From IMG/VR virus record IMGVR_UViG_3300020183_005424, positions 1-30,295 of that record: a stretch of DNA of 30,295 nucleotides; one strand, 5' to 3'. The first letter of the stretch is position 1; every line of letters begins with the position of its first letter. Position numbers and translations under genes: made by a program. The DNA comes from a virus. The notes under the pieces are model-generated. The model had not been told where the DNA came from, did no database searches, and saw only the letters and a list, made by a program, of their open reading frames with translations. Positions 3,510-22,852 of the stretch are shown in pieces.

Positions 3510-3513
3510 TATC

Positions 3514-3589: not shown

Positions 3590-3594
3590 AACAT

Positions 3595-3674: not shown

Positions 3675-3681
3675 TATTAAT

Positions 3682-3757
3682 GCGGGTGTAGCTCAGTTGG
3701 ATAGAGGAACAGCCTTCTAAGCTGTGGGTCGGGGTTCGAATCCCTCTAGTCACGCCA
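3682..3757 (+). tRNA. tRNA-Arg(TCT), acceptor stem imperfect
   Basis: The anticodon stem ACAGC/GCTGT encloses CTTCTAA, giving TCT. The D-arm, T-loop TTCGAAT and CCA are present. The acceptor GCGGGTG against TAGTCAC has apparent mismatches at 2:71 (C-A) and 5:68 (G-G), so the gene may be decaying or need correction of the transcript. Confidence 0.8.
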
Positions 3758-3773
3758 AATTTAGTGTACGAAA

Positions 3774-4544: not shown

Positions 4545-4650
4545 AAGTGATATCTATTGGTATGCTAAAGGTTATCTAAAATCTCATTGGCATGATTATA
4601 GACATCATCTACTATTACGTGATTTTGTTCGGCATTTAGTAATGAATTAA
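4510..4650 (+). CDS. possible small protein, 46 aa
   Basis: A short ORF starts with ATG inside the 3' end of the oxygenase-like gene in another frame, overlapping by 35 nt, and fills the gap up to tRNA-Cys. The product begins MTKIYKILLHPKSDIYWYAK, is basic, and is rich in His, Tyr and Trp. The overlap style matches other small genes here, but there is no strong ribosome-binding site and no family was recognised. It may be chance. Confidence 0.35.
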   Translation: MTKIYKILLHPKSDIYWYAKGYLKSHWHDYRHHLLLRDFVRHLVMN

Positions 4651-4669
4651 CACATTTACTGTAATTAGT

Positions 4670-4747
4670 GTGTCGGTGGCAGAGAGGCCCAATGCAAGAG
4701 TCTGCAAAACTCTAAAACCGTCGGTTCGAATCCGACCCGGCACTCCA
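4670..4747 (+). tRNA. tRNA-Cys(GCA)
   Basis: The anticodon stem AGAGT/ACTCT encloses CTGCAAA, giving GCA. The acceptor GTGTCGG pairs with CCGGCAC, the discriminator is T, and CCA is encoded. Confidence 0.9.
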
Positions 4748-4751
4748 AACA

Positions 4752-4828
4752 GCCTCCATAGCTCAGTTGGTTAGAGCACCGTCTTGATAAGGCGGGGGTC
4801 CTTAGTTCGAGTCTAAGTAGAGGCACCA
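4752..4828 (+). tRNA. tRNA-Ile(GAT)
   Basis: The anticodon loop TTGATAA in a CCGTC/GGCGG stem gives GAT. The D-arm AGCTCAGTTGGTTAGAGC is canonical, the acceptor GCCTC pairs with GAGGC, and CCA is encoded. Confidence 0.92.
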
Positions 4829-4835
4829 AAATTAT

Positions 4836-4911
4836 TCCCCGATAGCTCAGTCGGTAGAGCGACGGACTGTTAATCCGCAGGTCCCTGGTTCGAGCCCAGG
4901 TCGGGGAGCCA
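4836..4911 (+). tRNA. tRNA-Asn(GTT)
   Basis: The anticodon loop CTGTTAA in a CGGA/TCCG stem gives GTT. The acceptor TCCCCGA pairs with TCGGGGA, and CCA is encoded. Confidence 0.93.
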
Positions 4912-4918
4912 CAATATT

Positions 4919-5010
4919 GGAAGCGTGGCAGAGCTAGGTTTATTGCAACAGTCTTGAAAACTGTCGAGTCAGAAATGGCTCCGTGAGTTCGAATCTCACT
5001 GCTTCCACCA
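4919..5010 (+). tRNA. tRNA-Ser(TGA)
   Basis: Class II tRNA of 92 nt. The anticodon stem ACAGT/ACTGT encloses CTTGAAA, giving TGA. It has a long variable arm, a GGAAGC/GCTTCC acceptor and an encoded CCA. Confidence 0.92.
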
Positions 5011-5015
5011 TATTA

Positions 5016-5115
5016 GCCCCTGTAGCTTAATCGGTAAAGACGCGAGCTTATACCTCGCCAAAGCACCGGCCAGATAAGCCGGCGTGTGCAGGTTCGAGTC
5101 CTGCCAGGGGCACCA
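5016..5115 (+). tRNA. tRNA-Ile(TAT)-like with oversized variable arm
   Basis: A 100-nt tRNA with acceptor GCCCCTG pairing CAGGGGC, a normal T-arm and CCA. The stem GCGAG/CTCGC encloses CTTATAC, which would give TAT (Ile). About 27 nt then separate this arm from the T-arm, including a CCGGC/GCCGG hairpin with loop CAGATAA. That second hairpin also has anticodon-arm geometry (GAT, but without U33). Ile tRNAs normally have a 5-nt variable loop, so this is either an unusual class II-like tRNA or one carrying an insertion. Confidence 0.75.
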
Positions 5116-5134
5116 ATGATTAAATAAAAACAAA

Positions 5135-5217
5135 GCGGAGGTGATGTAATGGTAGCCATGCGAGTCTTAGAAGCTCGTGCCTTGTGCGTGTGGGTTCGAG
5201 TCCCATCCTCCGCACCA
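5135..5217 (+). tRNA. tRNA-Leu(TAG)
   Basis: The anticodon loop CTTAGAA in a CGAGT/GCTCG stem gives TAG. There is a class II variable arm. The acceptor GCGGAGG pairs with CCTCCGC, and CCA is encoded. Confidence 0.88.
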
Positions 5218-5271
5218 AATGGAGATTTCAATACTACTTGACTAAATTTACTTCTAATGTATAATTACTGT

Positions 5272-5379
5272 GTAGCCGTAAGCAAATAGGCAAAGCTCCA
5301 AGATTGGCATATCCTGCTATGAGGGACGGATTTGAACATAGTTCATTACTCCATGGAGGTTCGAAGCCTCCCGGCTACA
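5272..5379 (+). tRNA. tRNA-like element, anticodon not assignable
   Basis: A perfect 7-bp acceptor (GTAGCCG/CGGCTAC) and canonical T-arm (GGAGG, TTCGAAG, CCTCC) flank a middle of about 75 nt. A D-arm with a GG-containing loop can be drawn, but no 5-bp stem with a 7-nt loop and U33 is evident. No CCA is encoded, unlike every other tRNA here. It could be a tRNA with an insertion, a decayed tRNA, or a tRNA-shaped RNA with another role. Confidence 0.5.
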
Positions 5380-5388
5380 TGTATACAT

Positions 5389-5481
5389 GGAAGGTTGGCT
5401 GAGAGGCTGAAGGCAGCGGTTTGCTAAACCGTCGATCGTTGTAAAAGCGGTCCAAGGGTTCGAATCCCTTACCTTCCACCA
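5389..5481 (+). tRNA. tRNA-Ser(GCT)
   Basis: Class II tRNA of 93 nt. The anticodon stem GCGGT/ACCGT encloses TTGCTAA, giving GCT. It has a long variable arm, a GGAAGG/CCTTCC acceptor and an encoded CCA. Confidence 0.92.
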
Positions 5482-5575
5482 AAATTAAAGGATACTATGT
5501 GTAAAACAAATTATGAAGTATAAAGTTGGTACATTAGATGTACATGTATCAAGTTCTGTATTTCTCGTAAAATAG

Positions 5576-5604
5576 TTGACATTTTTGTAGAATAAGGATA
5601 TAAT
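5576..5604 (+). promoter_or_regulatory. consensus sigma70 promoter inside the tRNA array
   Basis: TTGACA (5576-5581) and TATAAT (5599-5604) are exactly 17 nt apart. The initiation point would be about 5611, at the first base of tRNA-Thr, so this promoter appears to drive the second half of the tRNA array and the structured RNA after it. Confidence 0.8.
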
Positions 5605-5611
5605 ACAGTAT

Positions 5612-5686
5612 GCCGACTTAGCACAGTGGTAGTGCAATCGCCTTGTAAGCGATAGGTCATCAGTTCGAATCCGATAGTCGGCACCA
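5612..5686 (+). tRNA. tRNA-Thr(TGT)
   Basis: The anticodon stem ATCGC/GCGAT encloses CTTGTAA, giving TGT. The acceptor GCCGACT pairs with AGTCGGC, and CCA is encoded. It lies immediately behind a consensus promoter. Confidence 0.93.
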
Positions 5687-6026
5687 GTCACCCGAGATCT
5701 CATACTCGTTATAAAATGGGGGTTAATTGTCCTATCCATAATGGGCACGGTGCATTGGATCTACCGCAAGGCCCACTATTCATGGGCGACTTGAGAAATC
5801 ACAAAGGCGAGAACACTAGTCGTCTAAATAAAATCAACGTGTGGACGGGGCAACAATCCAGTCTAGGGCTCCTGTGGTGGGAGTGGCTAGACACTTTATA
5901 AAAACTTTTTGTAGTAGCTACACTGGAATAATAGCAAAACTTCCGATGAAATCGGTCGAAGGCAGAATCTGCCAGGAAGAGCAGGGCTACCGTGGATTCA
6001 AGCGCCGCAGAGAGTTTCTACAAAGT
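5687..6026 (+). ncRNA. hairpin-rich non-coding stretch between tRNA-Thr and tRNA-Gly
   Basis: About 340 nt without a convincing gene; the short ORFs that cross it run on into tRNA-Gly. Several hairpins are visible. GTCTAG (5861-5866) pairs with CTAGAC (5887-5892) and encloses CTCC/GGGAG. CCGAT and ATCGG form a 5-bp hairpin near 5943-5955. GGCAG and CTGCC form another near 5961-5973. It would be co-transcribed with tRNA-Thr from the promoter at 5576. Large structured RNAs such as GOLLD and ROOL are known to sit among phage tRNAs, but I cannot match this to either by eye. Confidence 0.4.
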
Positions 6027-6104
6027 GCGGGTAGACAGGACAAGGGGCGTCCAGCAGCCTTCCAAGCTGAAGATCGCGGAGTTCGACTCTCCCTACCCGC
6101 TCCA
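6027..6104 (+). tRNA. tRNA-Gly(TCC)
   Basis: The anticodon stem CAGC/GCTG encloses CTTCCAA, giving TCC. The acceptor GCGGGTA pairs with TACCCGC, the discriminator is T, and CCA is encoded. The D-arm is slightly enlarged. Confidence 0.88.
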
Positions 6105-6145
6105 AAATAAACAAAGTACATCATAAAAATAAAAAAAGAGATATA

Positions 6146-6221
6146 GGAAGTTTAGCTCAGTTGGTAGAGCGGCGCCCTTACAAGGCGTAGGTCAGAGGTT
6201 CGACCCCTCTAACTTCCACCA
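6146..6221 (+). tRNA. tRNA-Val(TAC)
   Basis: The anticodon stem GCGCC/GGCGT encloses CTTACAA, giving TAC. The D-arm and T-arm are canonical, the acceptor GGAAGTT pairs with AACTTCC, and CCA is encoded. Confidence 0.93.
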
Positions 6222-6229
6222 AGTGAAAT

Positions 6230-6306
6230 CCGTGTGTAGCTCAGCCTGGTAGAGCTCCTGGTTTGGGACCAGGTGGTCGCATGTTCGAATCGTGTCACAC
6301 GGACCA
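6230..6306 (+). tRNA. tRNA-Pro(TGG)
   Basis: The anticodon stem CCTGG/CCAGG encloses TTTGGGA, giving TGG. The acceptor CCGTGTG pairs with CACACGG, and CCA is encoded. Confidence 0.93.
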
Positions 6307-6311
6307 GATAT

Positions 6312-6387
6312 GGGGGTATAGCTCAGCTGGGAGAGCAGTAGCTTTGCAAGCTAAAGGTCATCGGTTCGATCCCGTTTACCTCCACCA
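6312..6387 (+). tRNA. tRNA-Ala(TGC)
   Basis: The anticodon stem GTAGC/GCTAA encloses TTTGCAA, giving TGC. The D-arm is canonical, the acceptor GGGGGTA pairs with TTACCTCC, and CCA is encoded. Last tRNA of the array. Confidence 0.92.
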
Positions 6388-9091: not shown

Positions 9092-10012
9092 ATGTTCAAG
9101 AAAATAATTTTCACTGTTCTTTGTATGCTTTCAGCAATGTCTGTTAGTGCAGAGACTTCTAAAATTTACGGAGTCTGGGGATTCACCCCCGGAAGTACTC
9201 AAGGTTCTTACATAAGAGCAATTTTAGAAGAATCAAACCGGTTGCAAAAGAAATACGAATTTATCTTTGAACACAAGCCGGGCGCAGGCAGTTTTATTGC
9301 AGCTAAAAGCGTACTAGAAAGAAAAAATGCATTGCTTTCAAACAGTGCAGCTCATTTCGTGAGACCGTATCTATATCCCGAGACAGCTTGGAAATTCAAT
9401 GAATTTAAACCCGTAATGCTTATGGGTATGAATCCTGCTGTTCTTGTTACCAGCGGAAAAAGTTTGGACGACCTAATCAAGCAGCCAAAGATTAGTCTAG
9501 CAACCTCTGGTACAGGTAGCAGTACACACCTCATGGCAGAAGTTTTTGCTAAAGAGATTAAATCCAAGCATCCGAACAAAGATATTGTTATGGTTCACTT
9601 TAAAGATACCAACGAAGCATTTGTATCTGTAATGGGCGGACACACTGACGCAACTTTTGAATTCTTAGGAGACGCAAAAGCTAAAGCTACTGCAACAACT
9701 AGATTTATCGGACTTACTGGTAACAGAGTATTAGAGGGTGTGTCAACTTTGAGAAGTTTAGGTTATCCTGACCTAGCCGGCGTACAAGGTATCTTCGCAT
9801 GGTATGCTCCTTCGGATATGCCAAATGACCAAGTATTAGAATTTCAAAGGATTTTCCTAGAAGCAGAAAAATCTGAAAATGTACAGAGACTATATAGGTC
9901 TGATTATGCCAGTAGAGACTCAGAAGTACACAGAGGTGATAATTTAAACACTTGGTATCAAGATACTATTAGACGTTTTAGAAATTATACACAAGGTATT
10001 GAAGTCAAATAA
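9092..10012 (+). CDS. Bug/TctC-family periplasmic solute-binding protein
   Basis: The 306-residue protein begins with a typical signal peptide (basic MFKK, a hydrophobic core, cleavage near SVSA/ET at about residue 20). The mature part matches the tripartite tricarboxylate transporter receptor family (TctC, Bug): a PGAGSFIAAK segment corresponds to the family PGAGG loop, and LATSGTGSSTHLMAEVF to the ligand-binding SG-G-HLA region. Family members bind citrate, other carboxylates or amino acids in the periplasm and deliver them to TctAB or act as sensors. No TctA or TctB gene is here, so it would have to work with host membrane subunits, as phage PstS is thought to do. It is preceded by a late-type box and AAGGG. 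A secreted uptake protein is unusual cargo for a phage. Confidence 0.85.
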   Translation: MFKKIIFTVLCMLSAMSVSAETSKIYGVWGFTPGSTQGSYIRAILEESNRLQKKYEFIFEHKPGAGSFIAAKSVLERKNALLSNSAAHFVRPYLYPETAWKFNEFKPVMLMGMNPAVLVTSGKSLDDLIKQPKISLATSGTGSSTHLMAEVFAKEIKSKHPNKDIVMVHFKDTNEAFVSVMGGHTDATFEFLGDAKAKATATTRFIGLTGNRVLEGVSTLRSLGYPDLAGVQGIFAWYAPSDMPNDQVLEFQRIFLEAEKSENVQRLYRSDYASRDSEVHRGDNLNTWYQDTIRRFRNYTQGIEVK

Positions 10013-12106: not shown

Positions 12107-12880
12107 ATGTATAAATTTGGAAAAAACTTCTGGCTTATCTTTTTACCCTTTCATATTTTAGGTAGCATTGGCTTATTATATGCTTGGGATAATCTGCTAG
12201 TATTATTCGTGCTATGGATGCTAATAGGAGTTATTGGAAACGGAGTAGCTGCTCATCGATACTTCAGCCATAATCAATTTGAAACTTATACTCCGGTGAA
12301 ATGGGTATTAGGTTTTTTAGCTACTTTAGGCGGGATAGGTCCGATTACACATTGGAAAGTGCAACATACCTTACATCATGCTAGAGCAGATACAGCACGT
12401 GATCCTCATAGTCCTAAGTATCATTCAGCATTCACTGCAATTTACGGTTGGACATTTATCCATGGAGATACGCAATATCAAAAAGAATATTTTAAAGAAC
12501 GTTTTGTTAAAAAATTAATGGTACGAATGTTACGTGATAATTTTTTTAGATTTTTCCATGTGTATTACTACCCTATTATCTTTACATTTTGTTTGATTTT
12601 ATTTTTAATAAATCCTATATTTCTTACATTATACTGTCTAGCATATTGTATAGATTTTTTAAAACTTGGTTTAATTAATTATGTTTGCCATACATATGGT
12701 TACCGGAATCATGCTACTAATGATTCAAGTAAAAACAATATATGGTTAGGATGGTTAGGATTTGGATTTGGCTGGCATAACAATCATCATGCCAGTCCTA
12801 AAAAATTAATACTTACTGAACGCTGGTGGGAATTTGATATCGAAGGATTGATAGCAAAAGCATTATCAAGAAAATCTTGA
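12107..12880 (+). CDS. membrane fatty-acid desaturase
   Basis: The 257-residue protein shows the three histidine boxes of the di-iron membrane desaturase family: HRYFSH (50-55), HTLHH (87-91) and HNNHH (224-228), plus His195 in VCHTYGYR. Hydrophobic segments at about 8-48, 65-82, 152-172 and 172-190 place it in the inner membrane. The first box, HRxFSH, is that of acyl-CoA delta-9 type desaturases, which insert a cis double bond into an acyl chain using O2 and electrons from ferredoxin or a cytochrome. No electron donor is fused or adjacent. It is slightly shorter than typical members (about 300 aa). It converges on the ABC1-kinase gene with a 15-nt overlap. It could modify host lipids or a phage-made acyl chain. 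Confidence 0.88.
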   Translation: MYKFGKNFWLIFLPFHILGSIGLLYAWDNLLVLFVLWMLIGVIGNGVAAHRYFSHNQFETYTPVKWVLGFLATLGGIGPITHWKVQHTLHHARADTARDPHSPKYHSAFTAIYGWTFIHGDTQYQKEYFKERFVKKLMVRMLRDNFFRFFHVYYYPIIFTFCLILFLINPIFLTLYCLAYCIDFLKLGLINYVCHTYGYRNHATNDSSKNNIWLGWLGFGFGWHNNHHASPKKLILTERWWEFDIEGLIAKALSRKS

Positions 12881-14110
12881 AAAGTGTTTTACTAGGATAG
12901 GTATCAAGGATTTGATAACATCGTTAGATGGTGCAAGTAATTTATTAAATCCGTCGACTGCAACTAGAGTTTTGATAAACAAAACTAAATGGGTTGGAAT
13001 ATCTACATCATAAGTATTTAACACGCTTACCAAACTAGACAAACTTTTTGCTATATTAAATTCTCTAGCTGTTTTTACATTTAAATCTTTTAATATATTT
13101 TCCAAAGACAGCTCAATACCGTCTAAGCTACTATTAGTCCAACCAGCATTTTTAATTAAATCTTTTACAGCTTTATATCTTTTGTTAAACAACATTACAG
13201 ATATTCGTAAAATTGTTTCCCTGTCTTCTTTGCTAATTTCTCCCATGATACCAAAATCTAAATAAATGCGATTACCGTTTTCATCTATCCATACATTACC
13301 AGGATGTGGATCGGCATGATAAAATCCATAATAAAACGCTTGGACCACAAATGCCTCAAGGCCTTGATTTAACATTTTTACTATGTCAATATTTTGATCT
13401 AATAGGTCTTGTTTTTGATCTATAGGTACACCGTACATTCGTTCTAACACTAATACATTCTTATCAGCATAAAACACTTTTGGGATTTTAATAAAATCAA
13501 ATTTCTGCATATTTTTTTGAAACCGCTCTACACTTTGAGCCTCAACAGCTAGGTCCAATTCTTTTTTAATACTTGTGTGCAACTCATCGATGATTTTATC
13601 AAGTTTTAACTTTCGAAACGTGCGTACAAGTTTGAAAAGTTTCGATGAATGTTTTAGAAATTTGAAATCTTCTTCAATTGTAAGATCTATACCAGGTTTA
13701 ATTACCTTTACAACAACATCTTTATTGGAATTAAGCTTGGCATAATATACTTGGGCAACACTACCTACAGCAGCAGGCAGTATATCTACATGTAATGCTA
13801 AAGGAATTTTTTTAATTGTAGGTGCAATTGAACTGTAATCTACTGGCTGAACAGAATCTTGTAATTTTTTTAATTCATTTATAATCGAAGGGTTTAAAAT
13901 ATCATGTCTTGTTGATAGAAGTTGTCCAAATTTTATAAAGACTGGTCCAAGTTCTTCTAATGCCAATCTTATTCTAAGAGGCAGTGGTCCGGGAACTGGT
14001 TCTATGTTAAATAATCCACGTAGCAACCCCAAGCCGCTTAAAACTTGTTGAGGAAATAAGTGTTCTAACTTATATTTTATAATAATCTTACCGTAGTATA
14101 GTAAGCGCAA
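12866..14110 (-). CDS. ABC1/UbiB-family atypical kinase
   Basis: The 414-residue protein carries the diagnostic UbiB/COQ8 motifs: KFGQ at 60-63 (KxGQ), the alanine-rich nucleotide loop AAVGSVAQV (113-121), the lysine in VVVKVIKPG (135), ERMYG (223-227), HADPHPGN (265-272) and DFG (285-287). Family members are ATPases needed for ubiquinone synthesis, probably helping to move lipid intermediates out of the membrane. E. coli UbiB is about 546 aa with C-terminal membrane helices; this protein ends earlier and shows no clear pair of helices. The start is TTG at 14110, directly after the upstream TAA, with AGGTG seven bases before it, so translation is probably coupled to the upstream gene. A UbiB-type protein in a phage is rare. 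Confidence 0.88.
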   Translation of the reverse strand: MRLLYYGKIIIKYKLEHLFPQQVLSGLGLLRGLFNIEPVPGPLPLRIRLALEELGPVFIKFGQLLSTRHDILNPSIINELKKLQDSVQPVDYSSIAPTIKKIPLALHVDILPAAVGSVAQVYYAKLNSNKDVVVKVIKPGIDLTIEEDFKFLKHSSKLFKLVRTFRKLKLDKIIDELHTSIKKELDLAVEAQSVERFQKNMQKFDFIKIPKVFYADKNVLVLERMYGVPIDQKQDLLDQNIDIVKMLNQGLEAFVVQAFYYGFYHADPHPGNVWIDENGNRIYLDFGIMGEISKEDRETILRISVMLFNKRYKAVKDLIKNAGWTNSSLDGIELSLENILKDLNVKTAREFNIAKSLSSLVSVLNTYDVDIPTHLVLFIKTLVAVDGFNKLLAPSNDVIKSLIPILVKHFSRFS

Positions 14111-14500
14111 TTATTCACCTGCTACTATTTGTTCTAAAGTAACCCTACTATATCCTAAAATTCCGCTAACAATATATTTAGGATCTAACCAGTTTTGATT
14201 TTCTTCTTTAGGTTGTTGTCGCTTTAATGTTATATTTCTAGCAGATGCCCATGCTTGTATTTCGGGATTTGTATAACCACGTTCAAACTCATGATCTAAT
14301 TGCCACTGTTTATAGGATTGTTTATTTTCCCAATGCATAAAAATCAAACCAACTGATCTATCTAAATTCCTAAGGATACCGATTCTGAGTATTCTAGGAT
14401 CTTTCAGTGATCCTTTGTTTTGATGTGGAAATGTTGTAAAAAATTCATACAACGGATCTCCACCGGGTTTTTGAAAAACGGTTCTAACTGTCCAGGTCAT
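14111..14500 (-). CDS. small ABM-like (dimeric alpha/beta-barrel) protein, 129 aa
   Basis: The central part (VGLIFMHWENKQSYKQWQLD) resembles antibiotic-biosynthesis-monooxygenase-type ferredoxin-like proteins, in which a strand reporting W-S or W-N is followed by a helix with a tryptophan. The N-terminal strand TWTVRTVFQ and C-terminal basic tail fit loosely. No catalytic residues can be assigned. It is translated just ahead of the ABC1 kinase with no gap, so the two likely act together. ABM-fold proteins are often small oxygenases or cofactor-free tailoring enzymes in polyketide and quinone pathways. Assignment is tentative. Confidence 0.5.
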   Translation of the reverse strand: MTWTVRTVFQKPGGDPLYEFFTTFPHQNKGSLKDPRILRIGILRNLDRSVGLIFMHWENKQSYKQWQLDHEFERGYTNPEIQAWASARNITLKRQQPKEENQNWLDPKYIVSGILGYSRVTLEQIVAGE

Positions 14501-14537
14501 ACGAGTTCCTTTATGAATAGCACTGTATCTAATTTCT

Positions 14538-14545
14538 ATTAAATA
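14538..14545 (+). promoter_or_regulatory. late-promoter-like box ATTAAATA
   Basis: ATTAAATA lies 22 nt upstream of the ATG at 14568, identical to the boxes at 9056 and 19658. No strong Shine-Dalgarno sequence follows. Confidence 0.4.
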
Positions 14546-14567
14546 GCTTAATAACTTTATTTACAAA

Positions 14568-15176
14568 ATGATAACTTATAGACCCTTAAATATAGAAGAT
14601 AAAGAACAACTGTTAGAAGTATTTGAATTAAACCCCGTAGTTTATACTAAACATACAGATACAGCTTTTAAAAATACATTTAGTAAAGTTTTAGAAGAAG
14701 AATTAGCTAACCCTCTGTGTTTTTTTCCTGGAATTTTTGTTGATAATAAACTGTATTCTGTTGTGTACTTTAAAGAAGTAGTAGATGCACCGGCATGGAT
14801 ATTGGCTCATTTAATGCTTCGTCCTTCGGATTTTACGACGTTTATTCAGCCAGAATATATTGATGCAGCTATTAAACTTGATGAAGCAATTACCAATGAA
14901 ATGATTGTGAAAAGAGGACTAAATCGTATGTATTTTGTATTTCCATACGACAAAATATCTACACTAAGGTCAATTGGATCAATAGATAGGCTATATCGTT
15001 ACATACAAAAGGTAAGACAATACGAAAGTTTCTTTTTAAAAATTAATCTATACACTGACTGCATAATTAAAGCTAATACTATGCCCCGATATACTTATCA
15101 GCAAAAAATAATTGGAGGAAGAACTTGGCCGTTTGATCTTGCTATAAGAATAGGTATGGTTAAATCAGAAGTCTAA
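14568..15176 (+). CDS. GNAT-like hypothetical protein, 202 aa
   Basis: The N-terminus (MITYRPLNIEDKEQLLEVF) has the form of the first strand and helix of GNAT acyltransferases. The middle (YSVVYFKEV, APAWILAHLM) could be central strands, but the acetyl-CoA-binding R/Q-x-x-G-x-G/A loop is not apparent. It may be a diverged acyltransferase or an unrelated fold. It lies between the ABM-like genes and converges on the 15165-15500 gene with a 12-nt overlap. It is the only gene between two such small proteins, so a role in the same pathway is plausible. Function unassigned. Confidence 0.5.
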   Translation: MITYRPLNIEDKEQLLEVFELNPVVYTKHTDTAFKNTFSKVLEEELANPLCFFPGIFVDNKLYSVVYFKEVVDAPAWILAHLMLRPSDFTTFIQPEYIDAAIKLDEAITNEMIVKRGLNRMYFVFPYDKISTLRSIGSIDRLYRYIQKVRQYESFFLKINLYTDCIIKANTMPRYTYQQKIIGGRTWPFDLAIRIGMVKSEV

Positions 15177-15500
15177 AGGTTCAAAAACTTCTCCAGTATC
15201 ACCATCTATAATCTGTAACTTAATATCATGTCTCATACATTCTAGCTCAAATCGAGTCCAGAACATCTTTCGTAGAGGATGATTTGTCGCTGTAATATAG
15301 TGTTCTTTAGTTTCCCATGTTGTAGTGATTTCCCATCGAGTATCATCAAAGAAATCATCAGTGGCACTGATAAATCCTGGAGATTTGACATTATAGGCTT
15401 TAGATAATTGCTCAAAAGTTTTTCCCTGTGTAGTAACAATCCTAAATCTTTTCATCTTAGGATCGCCTTCACAAATTAATTTAAATTTTCTAGTATACAT
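15165..15500 (-). CDS. small ABM-like hypothetical protein, 111 aa
   Basis: Residues 44-85 (FISATDDFF, WEITTTWETKEHYITATNHP) look like a strand followed by the helix of ABM-type ferredoxin-like domains: a chain with W-x-T-x-E-x-H spacing. The N-terminal strand RKFKLICEG and C-terminal strand KLQIIDG would complete the sheet. The length is normal for an ABM monomer. It starts at an ATG with TTAGGAG upstream and a CATAAATA late box 21 nt before that ATG. It is divergent from a second similar small protein. Fold is a tentative call; function unknown. Confidence 0.5.
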   Translation of the reverse strand: MYTRKFKLICEGDPKMKRFRIVTTQGKTFEQLSKAYNVKSPGFISATDDFFDDTRWEITTTWETKEHYITATNHPLRKMFWTRFELECMRHDIKLQIIDGDTGEVFEPLDF

Positions 15501-15521
15501 TTAGAAATCTCCTAACGAGAA

Positions 15522-15529
15522 TATTTATG
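15522..15529 (-). promoter_or_regulatory. late-promoter box CATAAATA
   Basis: CATAAATA on the minus strand lies 21 nt upstream of the ATG at 15500, with TTAGGAG between, giving a normal short leader. Confidence 0.5.
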
Positions 15530-15559
15530 ATCTAATTTTAATCAGTATCTTGTAGTTGA

Positions 15560-15567
15560 TGTAAATA
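15560..15567 (+). promoter_or_regulatory. late-promoter-like box TGTAAATA
   Basis: TGTAAATA lies 19 nt before the ATG at 15587, with AGGGAGAT as ribosome-binding site. With the minus box at 15522-15529 it forms a divergent late-promoter pair. Confidence 0.4.
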
Positions 15568-15586
15568 CCTACAGGGAGATAATATT

Positions 15587-15922
15587 ATGCATTCAGTTAG
15601 AACTATATTAGAATTAACAAATTCTTCAGATGCCGCAGCTTTACGATCATTTGGAGATACAATATTCTTTAACCCCATCTATATTGATGTTATGGCAGCA
15701 CTAAAAGAACGACCTGGGTTTATCAGAAAAACAAATACCTTAGTTGAAGGCAAGGATAATGCTTATGTTGTGATAGAAATCCTTTTTGATTCTAAAGAAA
15801 ATTGTGAAACATATTGGAGTGAGCCGTCTATTGTAAGCTTATGGGAATATTTTACCATGTATGCTGGAGAGAACGGGATAAATGTTAGTAGCGAACTTTC
15901 TAATAAATCATTAAATATTTAA
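15587..15922 (+). CDS. small ABM-like hypothetical protein, 111 aa
   Basis: Residues 40-88 (ERPGFIRKTNTLVEG, AYVVIEILFDSKENCETYW) match the strand-helix pattern of ABM/dimeric alpha-beta-barrel proteins, where a PGF turn leads to a strand, a second strand carrying V-x-I, then a helix with aromatic residues. The ribosome-binding site AGGGAGAT is good. It converges on the 2OG oxygenase-like gene with a 12-nt overlap. It is the third such small protein within 2 kb, suggesting a tailoring or cofactor-binding group. Function unknown. Confidence 0.52.
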   Translation: MHSVRTILELTNSSDAAALRSFGDTIFFNPIYIDVMAALKERPGFIRKTNTLVEGKDNAYVVIEILFDSKENCETYWSEPSIVSLWEYFTMYAGENGINVSSELSNKSLNI

Positions 15923-16714
15923 ATTATAATTGATTTTATCTTTGTATTTCGATACACTACGATCAATTAAATCTTCTAATTTCTTCGGATGAAGTATACC
16001 GTCTATACAAATAAGATGTTTTCTTGATCCTAAGAAATCACTTCCATGGATTTGACTGCCATTACTCCAACAGAAAGCATTTGTTTCTAATGCTCTTAAA
16101 TCGATGTAATTGATGTCTCCGTGTTCTATATCTGCAACATACAAAGTTGGTGTTGGATTTTCGTCGTTCAACATCACTCTAAATTCTGTAGGGCAATTCC
16201 AAAAAAAGGTTTGGTCTCTATGCGGGTATACAGCCTTGACACTTTCCCAAATTTTAGCATGATTAATTATATGAAAGGGCAGATACTCATGTAATTGTTC
16301 TATAATTCTTTTGAACATAGGATGGGTGAGATATTTGCGTGCAAATATGCCAGTTTCATCTGTTTCAAAAGTATCTGGATTTTTAGTATAAAAGTGTAGT
16401 CCTTTAAATTGAGGTTTGTAGTAGTTACTGTATTTTCCTAAGGGATGGTTATCTTTATCCCAAGGTTCTGCAGCACATGGTTGAGTCCTTACGACATCAA
16501 TACATTCATCCTCCCAGAATTTTAAAAACTCGTCAAAATCGTCAAATTCGATCTTAGGAACATCTAAGGGCAACCAACGTATGTTTCTGTATTTGTCTCC
16601 AAGCTCCTTCATCTTTTTGACGTACCAATCTGGCATTTTACTTTCATCATGATGGACTCTGCTATTATTAGCGAATGTTTTTCTTATTTGATCAACTATA
16701 CCTTGGTTTTTCAT
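15911..16714 (-). CDS. 2-oxoglutarate/Fe(II)-dependent oxygenase-like protein
   Basis: The 267-residue protein has HRD at 165-167 (AVYPHRDQT), the distal His223 (SQIHGSD) and Arg231 (SRKHLICID), the iron and 2-oxoglutarate ligands of the jelly-roll oxygenases. The N-terminal 120 residues are charged and unassigned. The gene directly follows the ketosynthase on the same strand. It also has its own AATAAATA box, overlapping the ketosynthase stop, and a GGGAG ribosome-binding site. It is therefore the last gene of the acyl-assembly operon and could hydroxylate the acyl product, an inference from position. Confidence 0.72.
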   Translation of the reverse strand: MKNQGIVDQIRKTFANNSRVHHDESKMPDWYVKKMKELGDKYRNIRWLPLDVPKIEFDDFDEFLKFWEDECIDVVRTQPCAAEPWDKDNHPLGKYSNYYKPQFKGLHFYTKNPDTFETDETGIFARKYLTHPMFKRIIEQLHEYLPFHIINHAKIWESVKAVYPHRDQTFFWNCPTEFRVMLNDENPTPTLYVADIEHGDINYIDLRALETNAFCWSNGSQIHGSDFLGSRKHLICIDGILHPKKLEDLIDRSVSKYKDKINYNLNI

Positions 16715-16729
16715 TCGGTGCTCCCGATG

Positions 16730-16737
16730 TATTTATT
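16730..16737 (-). promoter_or_regulatory. late-promoter box AATAAATA
   Basis: AATAAATA on the minus strand, 15 nt upstream of the ATG at 16714 and overlapping the ketosynthase stop; GGGAG lies between box and ATG. Confidence 0.55.
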
Positions 16738-17911
16738 ATTGTAAATTTTCAAAAATAGCTATATTCGTTCTTCCGCCAAATCCAAAACTAGCTTTAATAA
16801 ACTTATTACTGTTAAGTGTTACAGGATTTACAATAAGTCGAGGGTCATCAGACAGCGGATCTGTAAGGTTATGATTCCCCCATAACATTTTATTTTTAAC
16901 TGCTTGTAATCCATATGCAGATTCAACTAATCCGCAGGCACTCATCGTATGACCAATGTAACCTTTAAAACTAACCAGTGGACTATCACAGTCTTCAAAC
17001 GCCTTTTGAAATACGTCAACTTCGATATCATCTCCTATGGGAGTGCTAGTAGCATGGGCATTAAAAAATGCCATATCTTTAGAACTAAGCCCACTCATTC
17101 TATATACCTTATCAATTAGGCTTAATTGATTTGCACAAGTTTTATCATGAGCCGTCATACTAGTTACTTTTGCACCGCTAGTAATTGCTCTAATTTTAGC
17201 TTTAGGAGTTAAATTTTTCTTTATAAGAGTTTCTTCATTGCAAATAAGCCACAAAGATCCGCCTTCGCCTTGTAGAAAGCCATCTCTTGATTTATCAAAG
17301 GGTTTACAAGTTCCACCATCAATAGTGCTAATAGCACTTGTGCATTGCCAATAGTATTGCATACTAGGCAATACAGTCATGTCTACATTACCTACAAGAG
17401 CCATATTGCAATGTCCAGTTTGTATAAGCATGGTAGCATAGTGCAGATTAAACATGCCGCTAGAACAAGCAGCATTAAGACTAGTATTAATACCTTCTAA
17501 TTTGAGTTTGCCAGAGATAAATGCCGACATCAAATCATGATTGCCCATGAATAATTTCGTAGGACTAAAACGTCTTTGTTTAGCTTCAAATGCGGCGTCA
17601 AAGTCTTTTTTAAGATGTGCTCCTGGAGCAAACGATCCGAATACAACTGCGGTATCTTTATCTAAAATCTCAACAGGATATTTTTGTGTGACCATGTCCA
17701 CTAGGTCTAACAACATTTTGTAACAGTTGTAGTCATTGTCTACATAATCCATATGAAATCCTTTGGTGCATAGCACCTGCTCAAACTTAGCAGGATCATA
17801 TCGGATAGCGGTCGTGGCTCCTTTTGTATTGGGGAAATTTAAATAGTTTTCACTGACAGAGCTCCCCATGCAGTCTTTAACAGCATATTCTAGAACATAT
17901 AACTCTTCCAT
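16736..17911 (-). CDS. beta-ketoacyl-ACP synthase (KAS II / FabF-type)
   Basis: The 391-residue enzyme keeps the full Cys-His-His triad of condensing enzymes: Cys149 in LNAACSSG, His286 in NAHATSTPIGD and His321 in YIGHTMSACG. The typical C-terminal FGFGGRTN also remains. Length equals FabF (about 410 aa). It would condense an ACP-bound acyl chain with malonyl-ACP, releasing CO2. The frame is open to 17944, but the ATG at 17911 follows the ACP stop by one base and starts right before the conserved domain, so I chose it. The insert around 35-75 (ATTAIRYD, KGFHMDYVDND) differs from housekeeping FabF, suggesting a specialised chain, as in aryl-polyene or polyketide synthases. It sits in an operon with ACP and FabZ. 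Confidence 0.9.
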   Translation of the reverse strand: MEELYVLEYAVKDCMGSSVSENYLNFPNTKGATTAIRYDPAKFEQVLCTKGFHMDYVDNDYNCYKMLLDLVDMVTQKYPVEILDKDTAVVFGSFAPGAHLKKDFDAAFEAKQRRFSPTKLFMGNHDLMSAFISGKLKLEGINTSLNAACSSGMFNLHYATMLIQTGHCNMALVGNVDMTVLPSMQYYWQCTSAISTIDGGTCKPFDKSRDGFLQGEGGSLWLICNEETLIKKNLTPKAKIRAITSGAKVTSMTAHDKTCANQLSLIDKVYRMSGLSSKDMAFFNAHATSTPIGDDIEVDVFQKAFEDCDSPLVSFKGYIGHTMSACGLVESAYGLQAVKNKMLWGNHNLTDPLSDDPRLIVNPVTLNSNKFIKASFGFGGRTNIAIFENLQ

Positions 17912-17912
17912 A

Positions 17913-18278
17913 TTATTTTTTCTGTTTAGGAGGCTCCTGTGCATCTACAATGTAGCCAATTAAGTCATGCCAGCGAAGGAGAGTTGCAATTTCGCTATCG
18001 TCAATAACAACACCGAATTCTTCTTCAATCTGAATTACTAATTCAAGAATATCTATGCTGTCTACTTCATAGTTAGATTTTAGTGTTTCAAAATCTTCAG
18101 GATCTAAATCTGCAACTTCTTTTTTAATTCTTTCATCGCCGACTAATTTTAAATCCTTTAATGACATATTTGGGTCACAAGGATACTCTAAATTCATTTT
18201 TAGATACTGATTTATCATATCTATAAACTTACGTTCTACTTCCTCATGTGTTCGAGGTTTCCATTCTAGATCACTCAT
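17913..18278 (-). CDS. acyl carrier protein
   Basis: The 121-residue protein contains a carrier domain at about 35-115 with the attachment motif DSIDILELVIQIEEEFGV; Ser74 would carry 4'-phosphopantetheine. The acidic helix after the serine (IEEEFGVVIDDSE) is typical of the ACP surface read by partner enzymes. An extra N-terminal 30 residues and a basic tail make it longer than housekeeping ACPs (about 78 aa). The ATG at 18278 follows GGAG that overlaps the FabZ stop, and the stop is one base from the ketosynthase ATG, so the three proteins are translated as a set. A matching AcpS is coded divergently at 20221. Confidence 0.88.
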   Translation of the reverse strand: MSDLEWKPRTHEEVERKFIDMINQYLKMNLEYPCDPNMSLKDLKLVGDERIKKEVADLDPEDFETLKSNYEVDSIDILELVIQIEEEFGVVIDDSEIATLLRWHDLIGYIVDAQEPPKQKK

Positions 18279-18287
18279 AATTTCTCC

Positions 18288-18752
18288 TTACGGTCCATAT
18301 ATGGCCTTTAATTTAGCTTCTGCCACTACTCTGTTTTCCACAAAAATTTGTGTTTCAAAATCGAATAAATTACGTGCCTGTCGTATTAATTTGCTTTTAA
18401 TTTTCAGTTGATCACCAGGCACAACTACTTTTTTAAATCTTATTTCGTCCGCAGATGTAAACAATATACCAGTTCCTTTAGCTGTATATTTGATTAAATC
18501 TTTCATTTCCATATTTTTTTCGCAGAACTTAGTAGCTAATATAGCACTGGCTTGCGCCATTGCTTCTACCATCATAACACCAGGCATGATTGGATTGTTT
18601 GGAAAATGTCCTTGTGCATAGGGCTCATTGAAACTGAAGTTTTTTAGAGCAAGTATACTATTGTTGTCTAATTCTAACACGCGATCAATCATAACAAAAG
18701 GATAACGGTGCGGTAGTATATTTAAAATTTCTTGAATATCTAGTTGTATCAT
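18288..18752 (-). CDS. FabZ-type 3-hydroxyacyl-ACP dehydratase
   Basis: The 154-residue protein has the hot-dog-fold signature of FabZ: PHRYPFVMIDR near the N-terminus, then GHFPNNPIMPGV with the catalytic histidine at 49 and VEAMAQ with the acid Glu63. E. coli FabZ uses His54 and Glu68 in the same segments. It removes water from 3-hydroxyacyl-ACP to give trans-2-enoyl-ACP. The start is the ATG at 18752, which overlaps the upstream TGA as ATGA; the TTG two codons earlier is not needed. Placed between a PP-loop gene and the ACP, it belongs to the acyl-assembly operon. No ketoreductase accompanies it, so its substrate must come from a host enzyme. Confidence 0.9.
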   Translation of the reverse strand: MIQLDIQEILNILPHRYPFVMIDRVLELDNNSILALKNFSFNEPYAQGHFPNNPIMPGVMMVEAMAQASAILATKFCEKNMEMKDLIKYTAKGTGILFTSADEIRFKKVVVPGDQLKIKSKLIRQARNLFDFETQIFVENRVVAEAKLKAIYGP

Positions 18753-19618
18753 ATGCAAATATCTTTTACTAATGCATGGTATTCACAACGCCAAACACCA
18801 TCCCATTGTTTTCCGATTTTTTCTAGTTCTGAAAAGCTTTCATGCTGTTTTATTGGACTTTTTTCTATGCGTTCAAAGCCGTGGAACTTAGGTCTTTCTT
18901 TTAGATCTAGGCCGCCGTTACGATTATAAATTATCCATTTACTAGAATGAGAGCCTAACTTACCCACAACTGCGTTCTTTGCTAAATCTTGCATCCTAGC
19001 ATCGGTCAAATAGGATCTAAACATCTGTGGTGTATATCTATTAAAGTGAACTACTCCATTTATCTTACGACTTTGGAAAAAGTTAGTTAAAGAATATTCA
19101 AACTCATAGATACAGATATCCCAAGAGCTATCATTATTCTTAGCTAAATGAGGTTCTCCATCCCCGCAGATAACTGTACCGTCTAATTGGCTGGCGGCAT
19201 AAGCTGTAGTGGTATAGTGTGGTAAAGATGATTTCATCTCTATAGCTAAGTCAATCATTTTTCCACTTGTAACAAAATTATCATAATCAATGTCAATAAT
19301 TAAAGGTTGAATATTTTTTTGCTCACAAAATGATAAGGCATAATCAATATCATGTTTATTATAGCTTGAACTTAGTCTAACGATAACCGGAATGATATCT
19401 ATTTTTTGATTTAAGAAAACACTCAAAGCATATTCACTGTCTACACCGCCGCTATACATCAAATGTAATTGACCAGATTTATTTGCTTCAACCATTTGGG
19501 CTGCTATCACACTTTCTTTGTAATAATCTGTAGATTTATAAGTGATAGGATCTATTTCAATTTTGAAATATTTATTGTTGCCAGATGCCCTAATATAGTT
19601 TTGATGAACAAGTTTCAA
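18749..19618 (-). CDS. PP-loop ATP-pyrophosphatase-like protein
   Basis: The protein has the ATP-binding PP-loop MYSGGVDSEYAL about 50 residues in and a following VICGDGEPH segment, as in adenylate-forming amide synthetases and N-type ATP pyrophosphatases. It has no glutaminase domain. The longest frame starts with TTG at 19645, but a late box at 19648-19655 would begin transcription after that codon. I therefore prefer the TTG at 19618, preceded by AGGA at 8 nt (289 aa). Its TGA overlaps the FabZ ATG. As first gene of the acyl operon it may activate a carboxyl group, for example to join an amine to the acyl chain; that is inference. Confidence 0.75.
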   Translation of the reverse strand: MKLVHQNYIRASGNNKYFKIEIDPITYKSTDYYKESVIAAQMVEANKSGQLHLMYSGGVDSEYALSVFLNQKIDIIPVIVRLSSSYNKHDIDYALSFCEQKNIQPLIIDIDYDNFVTSGKMIDLAIEMKSSLPHYTTTAYAASQLDGTVICGDGEPHLAKNNDSSWDICIYEFEYSLTNFFQSRKINGVVHFNRYTPQMFRSYLTDARMQDLAKNAVVGKLGSHSSKWIIYNRNGGLDLKERPKFHGFERIEKSPIKQHESFSELEKIGKQWDGVWRCEYHALVKDICI

Positions 19619-19647
19619 CGTCCAAATCCTAAAATAAAAACTCAAAA

Positions 19648-19655
19648 TATTTATT
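19648..19655 (-). promoter_or_regulatory. late-promoter box AATAAATA for the acyl-assembly operon
   Basis: AATAAATA on the minus strand lies just upstream of the PP-loop gene. The predicted start of RNA, about 6 nt past the box, excludes the TTG at 19645 and favours the TTG at 19618. Confidence 0.5.
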
Positions 19656-19657
19656 GG

Positions 19658-19665
19658 ATTAAATA
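19658..19665 (+). promoter_or_regulatory. late-promoter-like box ATTAAATA
   Basis: ATTAAATA lies 16 nt before the ATG at 19682, two bases from the opposing minus-strand box, so the two divergent operons share a compact promoter region. Confidence 0.45.
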
Positions 19666-19681
19666 ACCTATATCTTTAATC

Positions 19682-20224
19682 ATGAATACTATTACTTGGA
19701 AACCTGGAACTGAACCAAAACTAGATTTGTTGTTTGACGAATTAAGAGAACGACAGCATCAAGACCAAACGCATCGCCTTTGGAAGAATTATAATCGAGA
19801 TGCTTTTAAAGAAGTTTCTGCATTGACTATTTGTTTTGACGATGCTGGCAATCCTGAAATGTGCTCTAGTATATTAGTAAGGAATTGTTGGCCAGCGGGA
19901 GCGGTCAGAGTGTTAAATCGATTATGGAAAAGTAATAATAAGATAGCTTACCCTAGAACAATGAGTCCAAGTTGGGGACTATCAGCACAAAGTCAATTTA
20001 CATGGTTGGAAAATAATTTGCCTCATGAATTGTGTTTTATTAGTAGACAAAGTAATAATTGGCAGGATTTCACTAGACAAGAGTTTTCTCGGCAATTTCA
20101 TATAAACTGGGACACTGATAATTTTAGATACTTAACGTGTTCAAACGAAAGTGACGAAAGTTGTTGGCAATACATATTACATATTGGCAATAAATCACTT
20201 TTAGAAAAATGGAAAAGAAAATGA
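19682..20224 (+). CDS. hypothetical protein, 180 aa
   Basis: No family recognised. The protein is rich in Trp, Asn and Arg, with strands such as VSALTICFDDAG and CSSILVRNCW and a conserved-looking RVLNRLWKS helix; a GNAT-like fold is possible but no acetyl-CoA motif is seen. It lacks signal peptide and membrane segments. Its stop TGA overlaps the AcpS ATG as ATGA, so it is translated with the phosphopantetheinyl transferase and opposite to the acyl operon. A role in the same pathway is plausible from position only. Confidence 0.6.
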   Translation: MNTITWKPGTEPKLDLLFDELRERQHQDQTHRLWKNYNRDAFKEVSALTICFDDAGNPEMCSSILVRNCWPAGAVRVLNRLWKSNNKIAYPRTMSPSWGLSAQSQFTWLENNLPHELCFISRQSNNWQDFTRQEFSRQFHINWDTDNFRYLTCSNESDESCWQYILHIGNKSLLEKWKRK

Positions 20225-20586
20225 TATTAGGTGTTGGTGTTGATATAGTTGAACTATCTAGATTTAAAGTAATGGGATCTGATCGCCGTGATAGATTGGC
20301 TGCTCGAATTTTATTATCTGCAGAATTTGATATCTATTTGAAATCTAAAAGTCAAGCAACCGCACTGGCCAAATATTGGGCTGCTAAAGAAGCAGTTGCT
20401 AAAAGTTTTGGAACTGGAATTAGAGGAAATGTAGTTTGGAAAAATATTTTACTAGAAAATACAGAATTGGGACAGCCCATCATCGAATTAAAAAATACTT
20501 TGGCTGAAACTAACAAAATATGTCATATAAGTATCAGTCATGATAACGGAATGGTTATAGCATATGCTATCCTGGAAAAACTTTGA
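20221..20586 (+). CDS. acpS: holo-[acyl-carrier-protein] synthase (phosphopantetheinyl transferase)
   Basis: The 121-residue protein matches AcpS throughout: MILGVGVDIVELSRF with magnesium ligand Asp8, LAKYWAAKEAVAKSFGTGI with Glu57, and ISISHDNGMVIAY at the C-terminus. E. coli AcpS is 126 aa, with Asp9 and Glu58 as equivalents. The enzyme moves 4'-phosphopantetheine from CoA to the ACP serine. The start at 20221 gives an ATGA overlap with the upstream stop and the normal N-terminus; an in-frame ATG at 20209 would add four residues. The phage therefore carries both a carrier protein and its activating enzyme, divergent from the ketosynthase operon. A reported phage copy of this enzyme is uncommon. 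Confidence 0.92.
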   Translation: MILGVGVDIVELSRFKVMGSDRRDRLAARILLSAEFDIYLKSKSQATALAKYWAAKEAVAKSFGTGIRGNVVWKNILLENTELGQPIIELKNTLAETNKICHISISHDNGMVIAYAILEKL

Positions 20587-20951: not shown

Positions 20952-21404
20952 TTGATGATACGAAGTTCTAGGCTAGGCACAGCAATCTTTAAATATCGAG
21001 AATGGTCTAAGACAAGTAAGGACAGCAAACTCCTTACCCTTAGGCAAGGTGAGTTTCGATTTCTCACTAAAAACAAAAAGCAGATAACTAGCCTGATTGA
21101 TTTTTAGGATAGATACAGCATACTAATCAACTGAAGCCCGTAATGCAGTAGACGGTGATCTGGGAAAGATTAGGAATATTGGAGGAGCAATCCCGTGAAG
21201 GTATCCTATCTGTAGCAGTACAGACGCTTATGTAACTGGTGACTAGGGAAAGACCTATATGTTCATGTGCAGAATTCACATGATAGGCTTGGGGGACTAA
21301 ACCGATATACTGGGGATAAGGCCAAGCAGAATAATAAAAATCGTTCCGGCTATCCTGTCTAGTTTATTGAATGCTAACAGCAACCTAAAATCAAATTTGT
21401 AAAT
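20952..21404 (+). ncRNA. candidate structured RNA upstream of the TROVE/vWA gene
   Basis: About 450 nt without a convincing ORF, behind a consensus promoter. Hairpins include TAAGGA/TCCTTA near 21025-21044, GTGAG/CTCAC near 21050-21068, CTGTA/TACAG near 21211-21224, and TCATGTG/CACATGA (about 21263-21283) inside a longer CCTAT/ATAGG stem. GGATAG near 21109 can pair with CTATCC near 21351, closing much of the region. Ro60-type proteins bind Y RNAs coded next to them in bacteria, so this is a Y-like RNA candidate, but the Y-RNA Ro-binding stem was not found. It could also be a long leader of the TROVE gene or another large RNA class. Confidence 0.5.
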
Positions 21405-21436
21405 TGAAACAAAACGCATTCAGAAAGGAGATACAA

Positions 21437-22852
21437 ATGAACGGCTTTGTTAACGCAGTTCAAAATCAAGAAGCCCGTACTGAAAACGGTATGAAGGCTT
21501 GTAAAACCACAGCCAAGGCCACAGTAGATCTGTTTTACAAGATTGGTGCTAGCCGTGGCACTGACATCACTGGCGATTTTACAGCCGCTTTCGTTGAAAA
21601 CTCTGATGTGGCGCTGCGTATTGCGCAATGGGCACGTGATGTTCGTGGAGGTGCGGGTGAACGCCAACTTTTCCGTGACATACTGGTTCATCTAGAAAAA
21701 CGTGATCCAGATGCCGCACTGGCTCTGCTTCGCAAGATCCCTGAAGTGGGGCGTTGGGATGATATCTTTGTCTTTGCCACGCCGACTCTAAAGTCGGCTG
21801 CCTATAAAATGTTGGGTGATGCCCTTCGTGACTCAAATGCTCTGGCTGCAAAGTGGACTCCACGTAAAGGCAAGATAGCGGCTGAATTAAGGGCATTCCT
21901 GGGAATGACTCCAAAACGTTATCGCAAGAGTCTTGTGGCTAGTACAAAGGTCGTTGAAACACAGATGTGTGCCAACGATTGGGACAACATCAACTTTAGC
22001 CATGTGCCCTCTCAGGCAGCTCGTCTGTACAAGAAGGCATTTAACCGCCATACTCCTCTGTTTGCGGAGTACGTTGCCAAGCTAGTTAACGGTGAGGACA
22101 AGACAGTCAAGGTCAACGCTGGCGCAGTTTTTCCACACGAAATCTTAAAGGGTCTTGCTCACGGAATCCGCGCCACTGACAAGACTGTGGTAGACCACAT
22201 CAAGGCACAATGGGATGCCCTTCCTAACTATGTTGGTGAAGCCAGTATCCTGCCTATCGTTGACGTGTCCGGTTCTATGACCTGCCCAGCAGGTAAGAGC
22301 ACTGATGTTCGTTGTATTGATGTGGCAGTTGGGCTTGGTTTGTACTTGGCAGACAAGAACAAGGGCGTGTTTAAGGACACATTCCTGACTTTTTCCAGCG
22401 ATCCTGAATTGGTTACTCTTAAAGGCGACATAGTCCAAAAGGTTGACCAAATGGCTAAGTCTAATTGGGAAATGGGCACTGACCTACATGCGGCCATGAA
22501 CAAGATTCTAGACGTTGCTGTTGGAAACTCTGTGCCTCAAAGGGACATGCCAAAGATGTTGCTTGTATTGAGTGACATGCAGTTTGACCAATGTGCTCGT
22601 TATGACGACTCTGCTATGCAAATGATCGAACGCAAGTTTGAGGCCGCAGGTTACACTGTGCCACAAGTTGTGTTCTGGAACCTAAACGCAAGTGACAACG
22701 TTCCAGTCAAGGCTGACAAGTCGGGTGCGGCTTTGGTCAGTGGATTTAGTCCCTCAATCATGAAGGCTCTGCTTTCCGCTGATCTTGCTCAGTTCACCCC
22801 AGAGGGCATCATGCTTAAGACTGTAATGGTCCCACGCTACGACCTTAGCTAA
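21437..22852 (+). CDS. TROVE/vWA-domain protein (DUF2828, Ro60-related)
   Basis: The 471-residue protein has an alpha-helical TROVE-type N-terminus: RTENGMKACKTT, WARDVRGGAGERQLFRD, PEVGRWDDIF and KWTPRKGKIAAEL. A C-terminal von Willebrand factor A domain begins near 275 with the metal-ion site DVSGSM, later T-x-x-D residues and SDMQFD. This is the layout of DUF2828 proteins, relatives of Ro60/Rsr, which bind misfolded or Y RNAs and can tether RNA exonucleases. The start at 21437 has a near-perfect AAAGGAGAT; upstream codons from 21404 are not needed. It is followed by an intrinsic terminator and preceded by a long structured non-coding region, as Ro60 genes often are. The family is confident, RNA partner unknown. 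Confidence 0.85.
   Translation: MNGFVNAVQNQEARTENGMKACKTTAKATVDLFYKIGASRGTDITGDFTAAFVENSDVALRIAQWARDVRGGAGERQLFRDILVHLEKRDPDAALALLRKIPEVGRWDDIFVFATPTLKSAAYKMLGDALRDSNALAAKWTPRKGKIAAELRAFLGMTPKRYRKSLVASTKVVETQMCANDWDNINFSHVPSQAARLYKKAFNRHTPLFAEYVAKLVNGEDKTVKVNAGAVFPHEILKGLAHGIRATDKTVVDHIKAQWDALPNYVGEASILPIVDVSGSMTCPAGKSTDVRCIDVAVGLGLYLADKNKGVFKDTFLTFSSDPELVTLKGDIVQKVDQMAKSNWEMGTDLHAAMNKILDVAVGNSVPQRDMPKMLLVLSDMQFDQCARYDDSAMQMIERKFEAAGYTVPQVVFWNLNASDNVPVKADKSGAALVSGFSPSIMKALLSADLAQFTPEGIMLKTVMVPRYDLS

Follow-up and report, generated by a model that had tools for sequence, protein, structure and literature searches.

A type II FAS/PKS-like gene cluster with its own acyl carrier protein in very large T4-type phages

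Aryl-polyene or highly reducing type II polyketide synthase (PKS) clusters and ladderane-type clusters combine a ketosynthase (KS) with a FabZ-like protein and an acyl carrier protein (ACP), and phages are known for single metabolic genes that support pathways of the host. Here we describe a phage-borne gene cluster with the same KS, FabZ and ACP components together with an AcpS-type phosphopantetheinyl transferase, found in IMG/VR virus record IMGVR_UViG_3300020183_005424 (30,295 bases, analysed whole and called the window below). The closest precedent for a cluster of KS, dehydratase-like and ACP genes that uses a host reductase is cispentacin biosynthesis, in which the KS needs a partner subunit, AmcG, a ligase, AmcH, is also needed and host FabI is used (PMC10698177). 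Viral acyl metabolism is likewise known from single ACPs (PHROG 5934/4154) and from virome fab genes, for which a survey lists fabF, fabZ and fabG reads and not a linked set (PMC10653327).

Compared with those single auxiliary genes and read counts, the phage set is complete, syntenic and co-conserved. It draws on the same families as bacterial type II fatty acid synthase (FAS; FabF/FabB, FabZ, AcpP and AcpS), keeps their catalytic residues and includes a FabZ and an AcpS that pass curated cut-offs, but its KS forms a separate clade, its ACP bears a 50-residue N-terminal extension, it is embedded among GNAT-fold, PP-loop and oxygenase-like genes, and it comes without FabD in the records searched and without a FabG-like short-chain dehydrogenase/reductase (SDR) in a 364 kb carrier genome. 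Cispentacin and coronafacic acid clusters (AmcB/E/F/G/H; PMC10698177) also use discrete ACP, dehydratase-like and KS genes and a host-borrowed reductase, whereas the phage KS clusters hold neither a KS partner (CYF) nor a recognized AmcH-like ligase, and by score their FabZ is of the usual kind. Some of the phage clusters have B12-radical SAM and desaturase-like genes, as in the aryl-polyene/ladderane type, from which the phage clusters differ in their single KS and in the absence, with NCBIfam and Pfam models, of a chain-length factor or any synteny. No linked set was found in cultured phages or in the open literature, outside which most subscription papers and preprints lie, and no bacterium searched held the gene set in this form; within that scope, the original prediction that the full set is undescribed in phages stands. 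The enzyme families are known, and the novelty lies in a type II FAS/PKS-like cluster that evolved in phages.

Gene set, conservation and phage origin

The original prediction had assigned seven genes to positions 15911–20586, and all seven are intact open reading frames (ORFs) with unchanged limits. Five lie on the minus strand: a 267-residue putative Fe(II)/2-oxoglutarate (2OG)-type oxygenase (15911–16714), the KS (16736–17911, from an ATG at 17911; the listed 402-residue ORF reaches 17944), the ACP with its extension of ~50 residues (17913–18278), the FabZ-type 3-hydroxyacyl-ACP dehydratase (18288–18752) and a 298-residue PP-loop protein of the N-type ATP pyrophosphatase kind with the motif SGGVDSE (18749–19645). 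The plus strand carries a 180-residue GNAT-fold acyltransferase-like protein (19682–20224) and AcpS (20221–20586). The predicted tight junctions were confirmed in the DNA: the FabZ ATG overlaps the PP-loop stop codon (ATGA), the 180-residue ORF and AcpS share a further ATGA overlap, and ACP and KS are 1 nucleotide apart, with a gap of 9 nucleotides between FabZ and ACP.

The KS–ACP–FabZ–AcpS set is complete and syntenic in eight distinct IMG/VR phages, the window included (a 165.8 kb contig and the 364 kb contig have one cluster in common, which was counted once), so the predicted condense–dehydrate–activate set has seven related carriers besides the window. Because the same genes are syntenic in these seven other phage contigs, the gene set is not a product of chance. 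At a 45-bit threshold, FabZ and ACP occur only alongside the KS; AcpS occurs without a KS in seven contigs, five of which hold a divergent ACP-like match below 45 bits. Every one of the eight complete KS clusters also contains the 180-residue GNAT-fold protein, the 267-residue protein, at least one desaturase and two proteins located below, a 202-residue protein and ABMb. Between the window and one related cluster (contig L002), synonymous divergence of the cluster genes is near saturation (pS 0.69–0.88) and non-synonymous divergence is low (pN 0.09–0.32), which points to purifying selection on every cluster gene.

That the cluster is phage DNA follows from one carrier contig of 364,554 bases, which encodes a T4-type gp23 major capsid protein (8e-100) and a terminase (TerL) 56% identical to that of the Pseudomonas jumbo phage PA5oct; the carriers are a group of very large T4-type phages. 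The window itself encodes, near the cluster, a ClpP 69% identical to those of two jumbo phages, Agrobacterium phage Atu_ph07 and Sinorhizobium phage Phosso, as well as a phage ATP-dependent DNA ligase and a PHROG 850 RNA-binding protein (21404–22852; DUF7788 and DUF2828) that is kept beside the cluster in several contigs. Other viral contigs hold close relatives of KS and FabZ, and still more hold relatives of the PP-loop and 180-residue proteins. A bacterial or chimaeric region would account for the low GC content of the cluster (0.33 across 12107–20586, against 0.40 in each flank), but the same cluster lies on the contig with gp23 and TerL, and the same phage genes flank it across contigs from independent assemblies. 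Bacterial contamination is ruled out by the 364 kb contig, and we give a bacterial or chimaeric origin almost no weight. The sequence evidence instead makes it very probable that this is a real, phage-borne and functional acyl-ACP module.

The cluster is larger than originally predicted and covers at least 12.1–20.6 kb. Its additional genes encode a fatty-acid-desaturase-like membrane di-iron enzyme (12107–12880, plus strand; PF00487, 4.2e-17), an ABC1/UbiB-type atypical kinase (12866–14110, minus; PF03109, 5.1e-56) present in four of the eight complete KS clusters, the 129-residue ABMa (14111–14500, minus), with relatives in contigs L002, L154 and L173, and the 202-residue protein (14568–15176, plus), which is GNAT-like by eye only and has no Pfam match. 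Two 111-residue proteins syntenic with KS clusters follow: ABMb (15165–15500, minus; no Pfam match) is confined to KS clusters, occurring in all eight and nowhere else in the contig set, and ABMc (15587–15922, plus) is found in seven of eight at 45 bits and more weakly in the eighth. In the 364 kb relative, cluster GC content is 0.32 against a mean of 0.36. Genes for the extracellular solute-binding proteins TctC (window 9092–10012) and DctP (contig L014, 1961–2947), unusual for phages, lie in or near clusters.

Active sites, ketosynthase ancestry and missing functions

By its sequence, the KS belongs to the ketoacyl-ACP synthase (condensing enzyme) superfamily. It matches both N and C domains (PF00109, 7.8e-22; PF02801, 5.3e-17), and the predicted Cys149, His286 and His321 are present as numbered when counted from the likely ATG. 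In the 402-residue ORF these are Cys160, His297 and His332, which, together with Lys327, are invariant in an alignment with E. coli FabF and FabB; the catalytic residues are also unchanged across the first four phage relatives examined. Against the FabF model TIGR03150, the phage KS scores 140.8 bits, below the cut-off of 493.75, and the best bacterial KSs from a pattern-based scan of ~85,000 genomes were 23–34% identical over the matched part, among the matches listed. An IQ-TREE phylogeny of 98 rows, with bootstrap values that are rough, places the eight phage KSs in a single clade (support 100/100, branch length 3.08) apart from FabF, FabB, NodE and the KSs of type I and type II PKSs, with no nesting inside host FabF. 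The closest row is another phage KS, from contig L153, which is long-branched too. With branches this long the tree cannot reveal the source of the KS, but it excludes recent FabF capture from the bacteria sampled; together with the low identities to bacterial KSs, it rules out a captured host FabF. Only one KS is encoded per phage contig.

The predicted active-site residues of the other three core proteins are likewise present. ACP matches PF00550 (1.9e-6, 28.4 bits against a cut-off of 20.8) and carries Ser74 within a DSID motif that is invariant in four phage ACPs; with the FAS carrier model TIGR00517 it scores 28.9 bits, below the cut-off of 70.45. AcpS (PF01648, 8.8e-18; TIGR00516, 90.3 bits, above the cut-off of 59.8) has the putative metal ligands Asp8 and Glu57, and FabZ (PF07977, 1.1e-27; TIGR01750, 158.3 bits, above the cut-off of 155.15) has His49 and Glu63, all counted from the ATG, each pair being conserved without exception in the four phage relatives compared first. 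Matches to KS, FabZ and AcpS in INPHARED (Listeria, Enterococcus, Acinetobacter and other records) were judged to be host-chromosome contamination because they resemble ordinary fab genes of bacteria and many of them lie on small contigs without annotation; this is not proven.

Such enzymes could serve a general takeover of lipid synthesis, in which host fatty acid synthesis is raised or skewed by the phage KS, FabZ, ACP and desaturase, so that membrane lipid is supplied or altered. A FabZ that passes the true FabZ cut-off and desaturases that go with the set fit this explanation, as does a virome survey that lists fabG, fabF, fabZ and desC (PMC10653327). Set against it are a KS far below the FabF cut-off and on its own long branch, a dedicated extended ACP with its own AcpS, constant partners with no known fatty-acid role and the lack of a malonyl transferase in 14 records, and we consider a lipid takeover unlikely. 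A specialized, dedicated product rather than bulk lipid appears reasonably probable.

The original prediction also held that malonyl loading and ketoreduction are missing. The 14 related records searched yielded no malonyl/acyl transferase (PF00698), and the 364 kb genome no SDR/ketoreductase (PF00106); these absences are not proof, because the related records are fragments or of uncertain completeness. For ketoreduction the claim is mostly right, with cluster-linked SDRs in two KS clusters (contigs L006 and L159) and in two related clusters (L154 and L173). Since SDRs occur only in some clusters, host FabG probably performs the reduction in most phages, and in some a phage SDR may do so. By these searches the cluster is not a complete type II FAS, which has a malonyl transferase and a ketoreductase of its own, and host FabD and FabG are probably borrowed. 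The absences are consistent with the predicted phage carrier served by host FabD and FabG, on which a chain may be made by iterative elongation.

An own ketoreductase would also be unneeded in a coronafacic acid/cispentacin-type pathway, with a single C2 extension and cyclization on the ACP and a FabZ-like decarboxylase. The phage clusters share its trio of ACP, dehydratase-like protein and KS and give matches, all below cut-off, to the AmcF, AmcB and AmcE models, and that pathway borrows host FabI (PMC10698177); it depends, however, on AmcG as KS partner and on AmcH as ligase, whereas the phage contigs have one KS each, and the phage FabZ reaches 158 bits with the FabZ model and 69.5 with that for AmcE. 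Assignment to the cispentacin/coronafacic type of PKS was rejected for want of a KS–CYF heterodimer, and we regard this kind of pathway as quite improbable.

Partner proteins and the wider cluster family

The PP-loop protein is a member of the PP-loop superfamily, as judged from its SGGxDS motif and the HUP-like fold of its model. Its AlphaFold2 model (pLDDT 86.7) matches LarE, TtuA, TilS, MnmA, NadE (NAD synthetase), AsnB (asparagine synthetase) and carbapenam synthetase; over the whole chain the TM-scores reach only ~0.3–0.5. As an N-type ATP pyrophosphatase, sharing the SGGVDS motif and fold with LarE, NadE, AsnB and carbapenam synthetase, it is probably an adenylating enzyme, but its scores fit none of these singly and its sequence family appears to be confined to phages as far as searched. 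A pattern scan of ~85,000 genomes yielded no bacterial relatives, and 398 genomes of one phylum yielded only partial generic PP-loop matches of ≤29 bits, both without a positive control. Two further adenylating enzymes are encoded in the window, a QueC-like PP-loop protein (PF06508; 930–1541, ~11 kb from the desaturase gene), with relatives in 12 other PP-loop/GNAT contigs, and an asparagine-synthase-like protein (PF00733; 6822–8294, ~4 kb from the desaturase gene).

The 180-residue protein (AlphaFold2 pLDDT 93) has a GNAT fold by Foldseek and is present in 43 viral contigs, with no relatives in cultured phages or, in a search that had no positive control, in the 398 genomes of one phylum. Together, the GNAT-fold and PP-loop proteins might put an acyl chain or a derivative of it on phage DNA, tRNA or protein, as a modification of nucleic acid or virion. 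Phage Mom is one of the proteins that the GNAT model matches, the PP-loop model matches the tRNA enzymes TilS, TtuA and MnmA, and 17 tRNA genes lie close by in a single array (3274–6387; two are tRNA-Trp(cca)). The Mom, TilS, TtuA and MnmA matches are generic fold matches, though, the window scans, in which many proteins had no match, brought up no DNA-hypermodification gene, and we know of no nucleic-acid modification that involves a KS–FabZ–ACP set; a role of this kind is improbable.

PP-loop and GNAT genes recur alongside desaturases in another ~38 phage contigs, most of which have no KS. They are part of the core that is most widespread in a larger family of phage clusters, whose members mostly lack the KS module. 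The KS-less contigs also encode AMP-ligases, ATP-grasp enzymes, Rieske-like proteins and extra PP-loop proteins; among KS clusters, that of L006 has a B12-binding-type radical SAM enzyme and that of L159 a different radical SAM enzyme. Contig L144 has five PP-loop matches within 20 kb of phage DNA, suggesting family expansion, and in L173, L154 and L166 clusters of PP-loop, GNAT, desaturase and AcpS genes adjoin long genes resembling tail-fibre genes.

A proposed route to an acyl-amide

We propose, with a probability of about 0.5, that large T4-type phages use this type II FAS/PKS-like cluster during infection to build an acyl-ACP chain, oxidize it and release it as an acyl-amide. AcpS would convert the phage's own extended ACP to the holo form, host FabD would put malonate on it, and the KS, whose condensing active site is complete by sequence, would extend the chain. 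Reduction would then fall to host FabG or, in clusters that have one, to an SDR, and FabZ would dehydrate the 3-hydroxyacyl-ACP, one or a few rounds giving an enoyl-ACP. The desaturase-like enzyme and the oxygenase-like protein or proteins may oxidize the enoyl chain, the 180-residue GNAT-fold enzyme may hand the ACP-bound acyl group to an amine, and the PP-loop enzyme may activate a carboxylate as an acyl-adenylate, so that another amide or similar bond is formed. A small oxidized acyl-amide would result, with a putative role in the infected cell. Acyl-amide release through GNAT and PP-loop enzymes is the tentative part of this scheme.

Several observations weigh against this route. The predicted 2OG oxygenase label is a lead only: the 267-residue family shows the Fe(II)/2OG-enzyme pattern in alignment (H165-x-D167, H223 and R231), but the protein has no match in Pfam, in the PDB or to an Asp/Arg hydroxylase (AspH) profile, and an AspH-type oxygenase was rejected. 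Three paralogues (L006, 13502–14446; L009, 12032–12901; L019, 13528–14442, the sole copy at its locus) have HRE for HRD and Tyr for the distal His, and are possibly inactive or altered in function. Foldseek matches of the 180-residue protein do not favour LuxI types over other GNATs, with the acyl-homoserine-lactone synthases RpaI and TofI at ranks 31 and 50 among generic GNATs. Because GNAT, PP-loop and desaturase genes mostly occur without an ACP, the donor need not be an acyl-ACP. The PP-loop gene is present in seven of the eight KS clusters and absent from that of L159. Lastly, in the KS clusters we identified neither a thioesterase, which the original prediction had also found missing, nor a ligase for starter loading.

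Beyond this locus, large T4-type phages may hold a diverse family of biosynthetic clusters that make phage-specific small molecules in lytic infection, a virus-evolved specialized metabolism to which we give even odds. With equal reserve, we picture that family as having a core of PP-loop ligase, GNAT-fold acyltransferase and desaturase-like enzyme, to which KS–FabZ–ACP–AcpS, Rieske, B12-radical SAM, AMP-ligase and ATP-grasp components are optional additions. A conserved, co-inherited set for condensation, dehydration, carriage and activation that has an enzyme clade to itself, along with tailoring enzymes and candidates for product release, suggests that viruses encode entire routes to products of their own. 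If true, this would make phages an extra source of natural products and reveal a new kind of phage–host chemistry.

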